From: an uncultured Lachnospiraceae bacterium
Lineage (GTDB): Bacteria > Bacillota > Clostridia > Lachnospirales > Lachnospiraceae
Direction: 5' to 3'
DNA length: 18,562 bases
Assembly (NCBI GenBank): GCA_900544445.1
Contig: UQVK01000080.1
Span: 1 to 18,562, forward strand
Positions 14,687 through 18,562 of the stretch are shown piece by piece (position 1 is the stretch's first letter; the number at the start of each line of letters is the position of its first letter). Both the position numbers and the translations under genes were made by a program. A model generated the notes under the pieces. The model was not told the origin of the DNA, searched no databases, and saw only the letters and a program-made list of their open reading frames with translations.

Positions 14687-15577
14687 ATGATTGTCAATCA
14701 GCTTAAGACACTGGACAGCAAGGAAGGAATCATGGAGCGGATTTCTCCCGGCTTTCCTCTTTCCGTCTATCAGACCGATTTTTCCCTGTCCCCCGCACCC
14801 GTTCCCTGGCACTGGCACGAGGATTTTCAGCTCTGTCTGGTGAACCGGGGCGCGGTGCGCTTTCATGTGGTTCATCAGAGCTGCCTGCTGACAGAAAATA
14901 CCGGTCTTTTCATCAACTGCCGGCTGGCGCACATGGCAGAAGCGGAAAGTCCGGACGCTTCCTATTACGGCATCAACGTCCACCCGGATCTGATCTGTCC
15001 GCGCCCGGACAGCCGGGTTTATCAACAGATGCTGCTTCCGCTCCTTCAGTTATCCACATCTTCCGTCTCCCTTTTCGACAAAAGCACACCGGACGGCCTC
15101 CGTCTCACTGAAGCCTTTTCCAGAATTCTGACGCTTTCAGAACAGCCGGAGATTCCGGGCAGAGAGCTGCTCATACAAAGCGAACTGCTCAGCGCCTGGC
15201 CGGGCATCTGGAACATCGTCCGCGGGAGCGGAAAAAATGTCAGCGCCTCCGAAAACCAGCGTCTGAAGGAAATCCTTCTTTATCTGGACGCCCACTATCC
15301 TGAAAAAATCACCCTGGATGCCGTCGCCGGGCACATCCATCTGAGTCCCGGCGAATGCAGCCGTTTTTTCCGCCGGGCGACAGGGCTGACGCTGTTTTCC
15401 TACCTCCTGCAGTACCGGATTCGTCAGAGCGGAAAGCTCCTTTGCAAAACCGATCTGAGCATCGCGCAGATCTCGCTGGAATGCGGGTTTTCCTCCCAGA
15501 GCTACTTCACGGCCTGCTTCCGGAAACTGGAGGGCTGCACGCCGCAGCAATACCGGTACCGGCACCGGACCGGTTAA
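14687..15577 (+). CDS. AraC family transcriptional regulator with N-terminal cupin
   Basis: The 296-residue protein has an N-terminal AraC-type cupin with WHWHE at 41-45 and LAHMAEAE near 81-88. The C-terminal ~105 residues carry two helix-turn-helix units. The first is ITLDAVAGHIHLSPGECSRFFRRATG; the second is LSIAQISLECGFSSQSYFTACFRKLEGCTPQQYR. Regulators of this type sense a sugar or small ligand and activate nearby catabolic or transport genes. Two starts are possible: 14687, behind the G11 tract, or 14732 (MERISPGFP), behind AAGGAAGGAATC. I keep 14687 because LKTLDSKEGI resembles the usual family N-terminus. It is divergent from MATE, and its stop overlaps the stop of the convergent FAD gene by 4 bp. 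Likely targets are the MATE gene or the FAD/SDR genes (inference). Confidence 0.87.
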   Translation: MIVNQLKTLDSKEGIMERISPGFPLSVYQTDFSLSPAPVPWHWHEDFQLCLVNRGAVRFHVVHQSCLLTENTGLFINCRLAHMAEAESPDASYYGINVHPDLICPRPDSRVYQQMLLPLLQLSTSSVSLFDKSTPDGLRLTEAFSRILTLSEQPEIPGRELLIQSELLSAWPGIWNIVRGSGKNVSASENQRLKEILLYLDAHYPEKITLDAVAGHIHLSPGECSRFFRRATGLTLFSYLLQYRIRQSGKLLCKTDLSIAQISLECGFSSQSYFTACFRKLEGCTPQQYRYRHRTG

Positions 15578-17556
15578 ATTTCCTGCCCTCTCCGCTCGCG
15601 GAAAGCCTTCCACTGGGTTTCGAAGAAATACTCCGGTTCCGGCATGGGGCGGACCGGCCGCCAGGTGATCCTGCACTCCTCAGCGCTCTCCTCCCCGATC
15701 TCTTCCACAGTTTTCTGTGACTGAAGCCGGATTTCCTGAATCATTCCTCCCAGCCTGCCTTCATCCATCCTGCACCGGTACAGCTCAGGCATTTTTTCTC
15801 CCGGCTTCTCTCCCTCCGGGTTGGTATAGAGGGCGGAGCCTCTGCTTCCACCGCCGCGCCGGATATAATCCAGCATGGCGGACAGGTACACCTTCTGGGA
15901 GATCAGCATATCCAGCAGGTGATACAGCATTCCCGCCTGGCCGTAATCCGAAATACGGATGTCCCTTTCGAAATGCGCCAGTTCCTCCGTCGTCTCCTTC
16001 AGCGCCTGTTCCAGCATTTCCCCGTTCCGAATCATCCCGGCCGCCCTGCTCATGCGCCCGGCTGCACGCCCCCAGGCTTCGTCTATGTTGGAATTCCCGC
16101 CAGGCCGGGCAGCCAGATTCATGCGCCTCTCGGCAGCCTGCAGGCAAAACGCCCGCTCTTCTTTCGTCAGATGCCTGTGCGTTCGATTTCTGACACAGGC
16201 GATATATTCAGCCGCCCGCTGAGCGCCCGCCTGACCGGCATTGAGCGCACTTCCACCCGGTCGTGTCACACCGTGGCTGCCGCAGACCTCTCCCACTGCG
16301 AAAATCCCTTCTATATTGGTCTGCCAGTGGCAGTCCGTAGACAGCCCTCCGTTATTATGCTGAACACAAACGGCAATTTCCAGCATTTCCCTTCTCAGAT
16401 CCACTCCATGCTCCAGATAAAATGACACGGCGGGCTCATTCATATGCAGCAGCCGCTCGATGGGCGTACCGAAACAGGCGCCGGCGGAGCGCAGATACGC
16501 ACGGGCTTCCTCCGGAAGCTTCTCAAATGCCACCGTTTCTTCGCCCGGATTATGCAGGAAATCCAGAAATACCCGCCTTCCTTTCAGAATCGTTTCCTGA
16601 TATACCAGAAGGTCGATCATGGAAGATCCGCCGTATATCCTGTTGGAATCAAAGGGCCACTGATAGCCCTTCAAAAAAGTCAGATACTGCACCTTCCCGG
16701 GATCCGCAAAATAGTCCATCAGAAATTCCCGTTCGTCCTTCCCTTCCAAGTCCGTGGAGACAAAACGGGGAAGCGCCTGCATATAGGTTCCGCTCACATT
16801 CCAGCGGGGCTTTCGGGAAGCCATTCCAAACTGCCATTCCGTCAGATTCTTTCCCTTGATTCCGGCTTCAAAGGCGATTCCGCTGCTTCCAAGCTGAGAG
16901 GCCGGATAGACGCTGTCCCGGTACATGCCTGCCGGGCCTCCGGTGGCAAGTACCAGATTTTCACACCAGATGACCGTAAATTCACAGCCTTCAGCTTCAC
17001 GACGGTCCAGCCTTTCCCGGTTCAGGCAGAGAACTCCGCACACCTTTTCATCCTTTACGAGAATCTGTATCACCTGCCTGTGATCCAGAACAGGAATCCG
17101 CCGGCGCTTCGCTTCCTGCTCCAGGCATTCCGTCATGATTTTTGAGGTGTAGGGGCCCACGCTGGAAGCCCGCCTTCCCCTGTCGTGATCCGTCTGATAG
17201 CCGATATATTCCCCATATTCATTGTCCGGGAAAGGGACACCCAGCTCCACCAGACGATAAAAACACCTTGCGGACAGAGCCGCCTCGCACAGCGCCAGAT
17301 CGCCGTCCACGCACTGCCCGTGAAACAGATCCTCCGCCATGCTGCGGACGGAATCCGCCTCTCTGCCCGCAAGGGACAGCTTATAATAAGTCTGCTTATC
17401 CGACCCGGTATTGCGTGAGGTCCCGGCCTTTACCTCTTCTGCCAGGATTGCCAGGTCCCGTTCCCCATACTGATGCAGGCGCACGGCCGCCCCATATCCG
17501 GCCGCTCCCGTTCCCACAACCAGCGTCCGAATTTCCATCTCCTTAAAAAACGCCAT
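15574..17556 (-). CDS. FAD-dependent oxidoreductase, fumarate-reductase/succinate-dehydrogenase flavoprotein-like
   Basis: The 660-residue protein has the dinucleotide-binding motif VVGTGAAGYGAA at 13-24. It has the family signature near the middle-to-C-terminal FAD region, GIFAVGEVCGSHGVTRPGGSALNAGQAGA, as in FrdA/SdhA and L-aspartate oxidase. The segment after the first helix reads TSRNTGSDKQTYYK instead of the usual SGSxxAxGG-type flavin loop. The C-terminal ~150 residues do not resemble the fumarate reductase tail. No signal peptide, flavocytochrome heme motif or FMN-binding domain is seen, so it is probably cytosolic. The substrate is unknown. The start at 17556 was chosen for GGAGGAAAAA just upstream; the frame stays open into the upstream hairpin repeat, but that DNA is repeat sequence, not protein. 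It follows an SDR gene on the same strand, so a joint substrate-oxidising pathway is plausible. Confidence 0.82.
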   Translation of the reverse strand: MAFFKEMEIRTLVVGTGAAGYGAAVRLHQYGERDLAILAEEVKAGTSRNTGSDKQTYYKLSLAGREADSVRSMAEDLFHGQCVDGDLALCEAALSARCFYRLVELGVPFPDNEYGEYIGYQTDHDRGRRASSVGPYTSKIMTECLEQEAKRRRIPVLDHRQVIQILVKDEKVCGVLCLNRERLDRREAEGCEFTVIWCENLVLATGGPAGMYRDSVYPASQLGSSGIAFEAGIKGKNLTEWQFGMASRKPRWNVSGTYMQALPRFVSTDLEGKDEREFLMDYFADPGKVQYLTFLKGYQWPFDSNRIYGGSSMIDLLVYQETILKGRRVFLDFLHNPGEETVAFEKLPEEARAYLRSAGACFGTPIERLLHMNEPAVSFYLEHGVDLRREMLEIAVCVQHNNGGLSTDCHWQTNIEGIFAVGEVCGSHGVTRPGGSALNAGQAGAQRAAEYIACVRNRTHRHLTKEERAFCLQAAERRMNLAARPGGNSNIDEAWGRAAGRMSRAAGMIRNGEMLEQALKETTEELAHFERDIRISDYGQAGMLYHLLDMLISQKVYLSAMLDYIRRGGGSRGSALYTNPEGEKPGEKMPELYRCRMDEGRLGGMIQEIRLQSQKTVEEIGEESAEECRITWRPVRPMPEPEYFFETQWKAFRERRGQEI

Positions 17557-17568
17557 TTTTTCCTCCAT

Positions 17569-17706
17569 GTCGGAACGCCCTTTGTTCCGACCGCGCGAAA
17601 AAATCGCGCATGCGATTTTTTCGCTGCAATCACAGCAGTTTTGCGGCGTTCCGACGCAAAACTGCCGATTGAAAAATAAGCCATCGGGCTTATTTTTCAA
17701 TCTTCC
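17569..17706. repeat. Composite hairpin-rich intergenic repeat, long copy, before the FAD gene
   Basis: Four perfect inverted repeats lie head to tail. They are GTCGGAAC/GTTCCGAC (17569-17591), GCGAAAAAATCGC/GCGATTTTTTCGC (17595-17624), GCAGTTTTGCG/CGCAAAACTGC (17635-17665) and GATTGAAAAATAAGCC/GGCTTATTTTTCAATC (17667-17702). The last 52 nt (17655-17706) recur exactly at 18508-18559. The unit fills the gap from just after the SDR stop to the FAD ribosome binding site. TCGGAACGCC (17570-17579) can also pair with GGCGTTCCGA (17645-17654), giving an alternative fold. Confidence 0.85.
17667..17702 (-). terminator. 16-bp-stem hairpin after the SDR gene
   Basis: GATTGAAAAATAAGCC pairs perfectly with GGCTTATTTTTCAATC around a 4-nt loop, 12 nt beyond the SDR stop. 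Its U-run (ATTTTT) is inside the 3' arm rather than after it, so it may be a partial terminator, an mRNA 3'-end stabiliser or just part of the repeat. Confidence 0.5.
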
Positions 17707-17714
17707 TCCCCATT

Positions 17715-18485
17715 TCATAAACGTCGGATATGAAAGCCGCCGTCAACGTCCAGATAGCTTCCCGTGGTATAAAGAATTCTGTCCGAGCAGAACAGACTCA
17801 CCGCATCCGCCACATCCTCCGGGGTTCCCCAGCGCCTGATGGGAAAAACACCCTGTTCCAGCATGGCGTCGTATTTGTCCTTCACCGCGCTGGTCATATC
17901 GGTGGCGATGACGCCGGGCCTGACCTCATGAACCAGGATTCCCTCCGGTGCAAGACGGTCCGCAAACAGCTGTGTAATCATGGCGACACCGGCCTTTGAA
18001 ATGCAGTATTCGCCCCGTGAGGTAGAGGAAACTTTCGCGGAACAGGAGCCCACGTTGACGATGGTTCCCCTTTTCTTTCCGATCCACTCCTGCTTCAGCA
18101 TCTGATTTGCCACAAGCTGCGTCAGGAACAGCGTCCCCTTCGTATTGATCCCCATCACCCGGTCAAAGCTCTCCTCGCTCATCTCCAGGATGTCCTTTCT
18201 TTCAAGCGGAGCCACTCCCGCGTTATTCACCAGCACGTCCACCCGTCCAAAGCGGGCGAGCGTCTCGTCCAGAAGCCGCCTACGGTCCTGCGCGCAGTCA
18301 ATGCTTCCCTGTACATAATGCCAGGTGATGTCCTGCTCTGTCAGCTTTTCGAAAGCCTCCGCATATTTTTCCTTTGCGCCGGTGGCCAGCATCACCACCT
18401 GGTAACCGTCCAGCCCCAGCTGCTTCGCAATGGCATAGCCGATTCCCCGGCTCGCCCCCGTCACAATTGCCGTCTTTTTTCCCAT
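17715..18485 (-). CDS. Short-chain dehydrogenase/reductase (FabG-like SDR)
   Basis: The 256-residue protein is a classical SDR of normal size. It has the cofactor motif TGASRGIG (9-16), NNAG (87-90), the structural Asn N114, and the catalytic triad S147, Y160 and K164 in GSCSAKVSSTSRGEYCISK. RPGVIATDMT and YLDVDGGFHIRRL complete the fold. No basic residue stands out after strand 2 (VVMLATGAKEK), so NAD(H) versus NADP(H) preference is unclear. Such proteins are often annotated as 3-oxoacyl-ACP reductase, but no fatty-acid genes are nearby; next to an FAD oxidoreductase a sugar or polyol substrate is as likely. The start at 18485 is set by GGAGGAAAAA; the in-frame ATG at 18512 lies in repeat DNA. 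It is followed by the FAD gene across a 158-nt gap filled by hairpins. Confidence 0.9.
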   Translation of the reverse strand: MGKKTAIVTGASRGIGYAIAKQLGLDGYQVVMLATGAKEKYAEAFEKLTEQDITWHYVQGSIDCAQDRRRLLDETLARFGRVDVLVNNAGVAPLERKDILEMSEESFDRVMGINTKGTLFLTQLVANQMLKQEWIGKKRGTIVNVGSCSAKVSSTSRGEYCISKAGVAMITQLFADRLAPEGILVHEVRPGVIATDMTSAVKDKYDAMLEQGVFPIRRWGTPEDVADAVSLFCSDRILYTTGSYLDVDGGFHIRRL

Positions 18486-18498
18486 TTTTTCCTCCATA

Positions 18499-18559
18499 TC
18501 GGAGCGCCGCAAAACTGCCGATTGAAAAATAAGCCATCGGGCTTATTTTTCAATCTTCC
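18499..18559. repeat. Short copy of the hairpin-rich intergenic repeat, before the SDR gene
   Basis: TCGGAGCGCC joins directly to a 52-nt block (18508-18559) identical to 17655-17706. The block includes the perfect 16-bp-stem hairpin GATTGAAAAATAAGCC/GGCTTATTTTTCAATC (18520-18555). It ends at the SDR ribosome binding site and probably follows the stop of another gene just beyond the window. It lacks the ~76-nt middle of the long copy. Confidence 0.85.
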
Positions 18560-18562
18560 CCC

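Follow-up and report, generated by a model that had tools for sequence, protein, structure and literature searches.

The stretch analysed here (the window: 18,562 nt of DNA from an uncultured Lachnospiraceae bacterium, contig UQVK01000080.1) raises the question why two neighbouring genes, encoding an FAD-binding oxidoreductase (FAD gene) and a short-chain dehydrogenase (SDR gene), start behind almost the same hairpin-bearing leader. The initial annotation, made from the letters alone, had offered a repeated element of the REP, BIME or MITE kind or a repeated post-transcriptional control module. We consider it likely that the leader is a non-autonomous, modular palindromic mobile element, which inserts behind a Shine-Dalgarno sequence (SD) in fixed orientation and carries an SD of its own.

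Two leader copies and the history of their sites

Both leader-bearing genes lie on the minus strand. A repeat search of the window found a direct repeat of 58 nt with 97% identity (17652-17709 and 18505-18562), in which reading delimits an exact run of 52 nt, and both repeats contain a perfect 16-bp stem (17667-17682 with 17687-17702; 18520-18535 with 18540-18555). The shared block and its hairpin were thus borne out as annotated, and the same holds for the TCGGA(A/G)CGCC segment that runs into near-identical starts: it forms, together with the CATGGAGGAAAAAATG and TATGGAGGAAAAAATG starts, part of a second repeat (17553-17579 and 18482-18508; 27 nt, 93% identity). Read 5' to 3', the copy before the FAD gene (17562-17711, minus strand) comprises a native SD, GGGGAGGAA, the hairpins H1, H2 and H3, a 3' arm able to pair with the H2 loop, and lastly the start region CATGGAGGAAAAAATG with another SD and the start codon. 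Beyond the shared H1 it therefore has two more hairpins and a pairing of loop with 3' end. Folded alone, the minus strand of 17553-17715 reached -75 kcal/mol against -44.4 (sd 3.97) in 200 shuffles (z -7.7). The features are:

15574..17556, minus strand: downstream gene, FAD-binding oxidoreductase, 660 aa (PF00890)
17554-17556, minus strand: start codon of the FAD gene (sequence)
17562..17566, minus strand: right SD GGAGG, adjoining the element's CAT (sequence; conserved end in 156 copies)
17570..17577, minus strand: 3' arm CGTTCCGA, partner of the H2 loop or the H4 5' arm (pairing in both data sets)
17584..17591, minus strand: H4 5' arm, second and weaker partner of the 3' arm (alignment pairing)
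17592..17628, minus strand: H3, 13-bp stem plus 3-bp base, one bulged A (fold, covariation)
17635..17665, minus strand: H2, 11-bp stem (fold, covariation)
17647..17654, minus strand: H2 loop TCGGAACG, forming the 5' side of the long-range pairing (covariation, repeated in the second data set)
17667..17702, minus strand: H1, perfect 16-bp stem with 4-nt loop, 5' end of the element (repeat search, fold, covariation)
17705..17709, minus strand: left native SD, GGAGG within GGGGAGGAA (17703-17711), directly 5' of H1 (sequence)
17715..18485, minus strand: gene between both copies, short-chain dehydrogenase (SDR), 256 aa (PF13561)
18491..18562, minus strand: short, internally deleted copy ahead of the SDR gene (sequence, repeat search)
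18491-18495, 18500-18508, 18508-18519 and 18520-18555, minus strand: SD, 3' arm, H2 5' arm and H1 of the short copy (sequence)

An SD-like sequence stands 5' of each copy (GGGGAGGAA for the FAD gene, GGGGGAA for the SDR gene), and the left SD of the FAD copy, 5 nt past the SDR stop codon (17715-17717), is now orphaned. The SDR copy is an internally deleted form, which keeps H1, the H2 5' arm, the 3' arm and the SD alone, and its 5' flank is cut at the window edge. Short forms occur at six other loci, four joined as in the window (L172, L180, L253, L260) and two in a different way (L099, L110); consequently, the SDR copy is either a deletion that recurs or a minimal version. A motif scan of the window copies detected no terminator-like site within the element. 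Four of the five promoter-like matches (TTGAAA-16-TATTTT) fall into H1, on both strands (17669-17700, 18522-18553), and are symmetric; they are no evidence of function. On the other side of the FAD gene an AraC-type regulator (14687-15577, plus strand) is convergent with it, the two ORFs overlapping by 4 bases.

In the gap between the SDR and FAD genes the insert is absent from the six relatives found to have both genes (G003, G005, G006, G007, G009, G011); G009 and G007 show an ordinary SD and start at this junction. The site before the SDR gene carries a full copy in G006, the short copy in the window and, by reading, none in G005, G011 and G003. At the same place G009 and G007 (L185, L186) have a shorter relative that lacks H1 and H2 but has an H3-like hairpin and shares the CGCTTCGGCATGGAGG end; it may be an older form. 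In a second filled and empty pair (L035 and L249) the sequence reads CCGGCATGGAGGAA, with the element behind it. Altogether 28 such pairings were compared, several of which are divergent, contain another or older element, or are unclean: in L004 against L221 the filled site has bases additional to the element, and in L042 against L234 the other genome has a different element. An exact before and after pair of near-identical strains was not found among them, and no copy was seen moving. Duplication of one leader within the window, without any mobility, had been named at the outset as the competing explanation and would suit two neighbouring copies with an exact 52-nt block. We rejected it as practically negligible, since copies 90-94% identical are dispersed elsewhere in G006 and G009 and the two sites have separate histories, the SDR site with its full copy in G006 having one of its own.

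Dispersal and siting at ribosome-binding sites

Further copies, for which a search in related genomes had been suggested, turned out to be many and dispersed. The nearest genome (G001) gave 21 leader matches at 17 places, two to the SD end only. Among 61 relatives searched (E 1e-6), 11 gave matches, namely 10 of 13 within the genus and a single genome from another family of the order. With one mismatch allowed, the H1 pattern was present at 2-60 sites in each of the ten carrier genomes of the genus and at 0 in the other three; the reversed pattern, as control, gave 0 sites. A scan of named genomes delivered at least 115 stretches with matches, mostly Eisenbergiella or Lachnospiraceae bins. Other labels among the matches listed were Eubacteriales, Roseburia, Blautia, Acetatifactor, Bacillus, Muribaculaceae and Gastranaerophilales, the last three perhaps misnamed. 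Across the bacterial family, a covariance model built from 42 aligned copies (alignment A1) located the element in 36 of 250 genomes, or 35 of 249 genera, and, among the better assemblies, in 28 of 201. Within 0.73 Mb of G009 there are 16 matches of at least 23 bits, about 22 per Mb, on contigs partly picked for earlier matches. This small hairpin DNA, which is probably mobile, is common in some gut bacteria.

Phage and plasmid collections gave no match of the window copy at the sensitivity used, and viral contigs contained 0 exact matches of the H1 pattern; an origin as phage or plasmid cargo was rejected on these grounds. Of 117 matches, 19 were cut at an end of the retrieved stretch, among them L069, L084, L095, L107, L111 and L139, which lie at contig ends, as would be the case for a repeat whose many copies interrupt assembly. 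The element thus helps to explain why contigs often end inside copies in such assemblies. Two pairs of loci (L182 and L119; L102 and L074) show alike gene starts, by eye nuclease-like and MetA-like, that carry the element in different genomes; these could be either old shared insertions or repeated hits.

An ORF of at least 60 aa follows directly after 48 of 56 copies, compared to 7 of 56 on the opposite strand as control and 870 of 3000 random places. These 56 copies remained from 86 matches of at least 23.7 bits after 30 were dropped (3 cut by the end of the stretch, 27 that hit the same copies again on the opposite strand or through H1 only), and some of the stretches had been chosen because of their matches. 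In a second set 61 of 71 run directly into an ORF, against 4 of 71 in the opposite control. Further counts rest on 156 copies kept from 226, after removal of 27 without recognisable H1, 25 near an edge and 18 duplicates, with a few opposite-strand matches remaining as noise. The spacing from SD to start is mostly 5-6 nt in these copies. A few bases 5' of H1 an SD-like motif (AGGAGG at 5 or 6 of 6 positions) is found in 90 of the 156, against 16 and 20 in control windows further upstream, and in the second set in 42 of 71 against 6 of 71; the base just upstream of H1 is A in 90%. An SD hence stands on both sides of the element.

The tested genes downstream are unrelated: ligase, ABC transporter, ProRS, GalT, aminotransferase, Dus and others, with a Pfam hit in 8 of the 10 proteins tested out of 20 prepared. 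At one locus (L245:9126-12119) the element lies 5' of a gene whose 998-aa product has both kinase and RCC1-repeat matches. Tandem insertion at the element's own right SD was seen as well (L029 / L261; G003 C201, 21837-22226). There three tandem copies lie 135-140 nt apart, each behind the right SD of the previous one.

Structure, ends and the question of DNA or RNA

Compensatory base changes, for which a covariance model had been proposed, proved extensive. Alignment A1 comprises 42 of 51 representative copies, 9 with extra hairpins or misread ends being omitted. Pairing in its three stems amounts to 97.9%, changes on both sides affect 22 of 43 pairs, and 212 double-change cells compare with 69.8 after shuffling. 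The H2 loop and the 3' arm are 95.0% paired, while slid versions reach 23-39%, and 32 double-change cells stand against 10.3 shuffled. Weaker points of this pairing are that 34 of 500 shuffles also reached its count of 4 doubly changed pairs and that its 10 pair types fall below the shuffled mean of 10.6. H4 as local partner of the 3' arm is 78.1% paired. The second alignment, A4, draws on other genomes of the family and contains 71 matches that did not enter the covariance model (one copy counted twice, as L307 and L369), with no core identical or 95% alike to A1, and it was not fitted to the loop pairing. Here loop and 3' arm are 93.2% paired, against at most 38% in slid versions. Both-side changes occur in 7 of 9 pairs (reached by 16 of 500 shuffles), with 72 double-change cells against 21.0 and 20 further pair types against 15.1. 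Since the covariation shuffles ignore relatedness, more weight falls on the controls given by the slid versions and by the second data set.

By reading, the ends are mostly NNNA|GATTG or GTGTG on the left and CGG(A/C)ATGGAG on the right, at a length of about 125-145 nt. AT precedes GGAG at 162 of 196 right ends (of 227 copies) but at only 77 of 502 other SDs, although the latter retain some element ends (30 read GG(A/C)AT; the filter removed only 7). Consequently, CGG(A/C)AT belongs to the element. Terminal inverted repeats were not detected, the mean being 4.8 of 14 matches compared to 4.9 shuffled in 114 of the 156 copies.

Left and right flanks resemble each other just after the GGAG. A comparison that used 106 of the 156 copies showed identity above within-group shuffles (P below 0.01) at SD+4 to +6 and at an isolated -7 (P 0.009), among nineteen positions tested. 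A test within subfamilies used 185 of 227 copies, 142 of them in subfamilies of two or more. Of 568 comparisons between the last 4 left bases and the 4 that follow the right GGAG, 353 agreed, against 323.6 shuffled, and 0 of 2000 shuffles reached the observed value; singly, the four positions gave P 0.04, 0.0005, 0.002 and 0.05. All four were equal in 33 copies (18.0 shuffled, maximum 29), and an excess, though a weaker one, also appeared at neighbouring shifts (P 0.01 at -1, P 0.023 at +2). Shared runs of 8 or more nt were found in 33 of 216 copies (of 227), against 11.1 and a maximum of 21 in 1000 shuffles. The signal of a flank duplication is modest and the flanks are biased in composition. 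Some right ends off the consensus share their departure with the left flank and others do not, so the exact junction may vary. Taken together, the flank identity and the AT before the right GGAG suggest an insertion about 4 bases behind GGAG with a short duplication, in which the element's own GGAG keeps the spacing.

Is this structure kept as DNA or as RNA? Among 251 distinct hairpins with 2857 pairs we counted 49 mismatches, 15 of them G-T and 18 A-C, whereas 23 tRNAs of the same DNA have 32 G-T and 1 A-C (Fisher P 4e-6). That the palindromes are nearly perfect and show no bias towards wobble pairs suggests that they are maintained as DNA, or else that palindrome correction is at work. The pairing of loop and 3' arm, however, leans toward G-U over A-C (31:12 in A4, 15:6 in A1), which could reflect an RNA-level role for that pairing and counts against a purely DNA reading. 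It is also the single result that favours the control module of the initial annotation, i.e. a cis-regulatory leader RNA (a pseudoknot switch or RNase site) copied before many genes as shared post-transcriptional control. Such a leader would agree with the sense orientation of most copies beside the SD and with the strong covariation seen in the pseudoknot-like pairing that abuts it. Against it stand the unrelated downstream genes, the orthologous genes without the element and the missing wobble excess among stem mismatches. Nor is the SD predicted to be buried: with the pseudoknot left out of the calculation, exposure was 0.52 with the element (110 copies) and 0.54 with it cut out (85; P 0.64), while a set of 250 other SD-led genes had 0.41 (P 0.0002). 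By these predictions SD sequestration is not supported, and translation of the gene is probably little affected. A known Rfam RNA was rejected as well: Rfam 15 gave 0 matches at gathering score in the window, the best of the scattered sub-threshold hits having 30.2 bits where 79 are needed (E 0.005). We thus regard a control RNA as less likely than a mobile element, and the leader-RNA explanation as quite unlikely.

The proposal of a repeated element that brings its own ribosome-binding site is, on the other hand, supported by dispersal, empty orthologous sites, position and structure. A mobile element of this kind, in its common form of about 125-145 nt and almost wholly hairpins, would insert in one orientation directly behind a gene's SD, its left end lying past GGAG plus about 4 nt. 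The right end would supply CGG(A/C)ATGGAG, so that the SD spacing of the gene is kept and the old SD is stranded upstream; the gene is probably still readable via the replacement SD. Because the stems are near-perfect DNA palindromes without RNA-type wobble, we infer a transposition step by an enzyme that reads folded DNA, and the loop-to-3'-end pairing may bring the element ends together. Alternatively, the fixed orientation could arise if insertions that cost a gene its SD are selected against. Tentatively, one might envision a family-wide class that targets the ribosome-binding site, the enzyme recognising folded DNA, joining the loop-paired ends and inserting four bases behind GGAG, where the built-in SD replaces the displaced one and makes the insertion nearly silent.

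Insertion at a gene start would normally cost the gene its ribosome-binding site; a spare SD could let repeats fill tight operon gaps without silencing. The element would also change leader annotation in Lachnospiraceae, as it looks riboswitch-like and is probably no riboswitch, and it points to a mobilising enzyme whose target is very short and general. A search by title or abstract start found no description of it in the open-licence literature, which is not proof of its being unpublished.

Putative mobilising enzyme and relation to known systems

Non-autonomous elements of the IS200/IS605 type (PATEs) have hairpins at their ends, keep the target on the left, carry a target-like right end and insert in fixed orientation. 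The element described here resembles them in that it keeps its target motif left, matches it right and is found in one orientation, which selection could give as well. An IS200/IS605-derived or REP-type element, moved as folded single-stranded DNA by a Y1 (RAYT/TnpA) transposase, would agree with hairpins at both ends and with these motifs. However, the Y1 domain PF01797 does not track the carriers: within the genus it was detected in all 3 non-carriers and in 3 of the 10 carriers, and in the family, among genomes hand-chosen from the covariance-scan results, in 5 of 18 carriers (2 weak, one of these below the cut-off) compared to 10 of 16 non-carriers. Since it is missing from many copy-rich genomes, a Y1 transposase is not supported as mobiliser, and the indicated short duplication argues in the same direction. 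We therefore see in this variant of the mobile element a minor possibility. Among the matches listed, no autonomous copy with a gene between the halves was present.

Another variant, which we consider unlikely, is that a DDE transposase moves an ordinary MITE and duplicates a short piece of the target, orientation and position being left by survival under selection. The left and right identity just after GGAG speaks for it, but the element has no terminal inverted repeats, and selection alone leaves the left orphan SD unexplained. With MITEs, as described in PMC3049150, it shares small size, structure and lack of autonomy, and a short duplication may be a further likeness; it differs from them by the absence of terminal inverted repeats. 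Of the proposed likeness to REP, BIME or MITE, a mobile-type repeat is hence supported, whereas a strict REP, with its end tag and a consistent Y1/RAYT gene, and a classical MITE are not.

REPs are described as measuring 20-40 bp and bearing an end tag GTAG or CGTC (PMC3733652); by reading, neither tag is present at the element ends. REP, BIME and REPIN sequences with their RAYT are like the element in being high-copy intergenic palindromes that are non-autonomous and spread within genomes (PMC3733652). At 125-145 nt, with several hairpins, siting at the SD and no consistent Y1 gene, it nevertheless differs from a REP as there described (PMC3733652). By description, a further likeness is to the pneumococcal BOX, built as boxA-boxB(n)-boxC: this too is a modular small interspersed repeat that is folded, judged parasitic, and gains and loses modules (PMC3049150). 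In contrast to BOX, for which the available part of that description mentions no SD siting, the element is sited at the SD and carries an SD of its own (PMC3049150).
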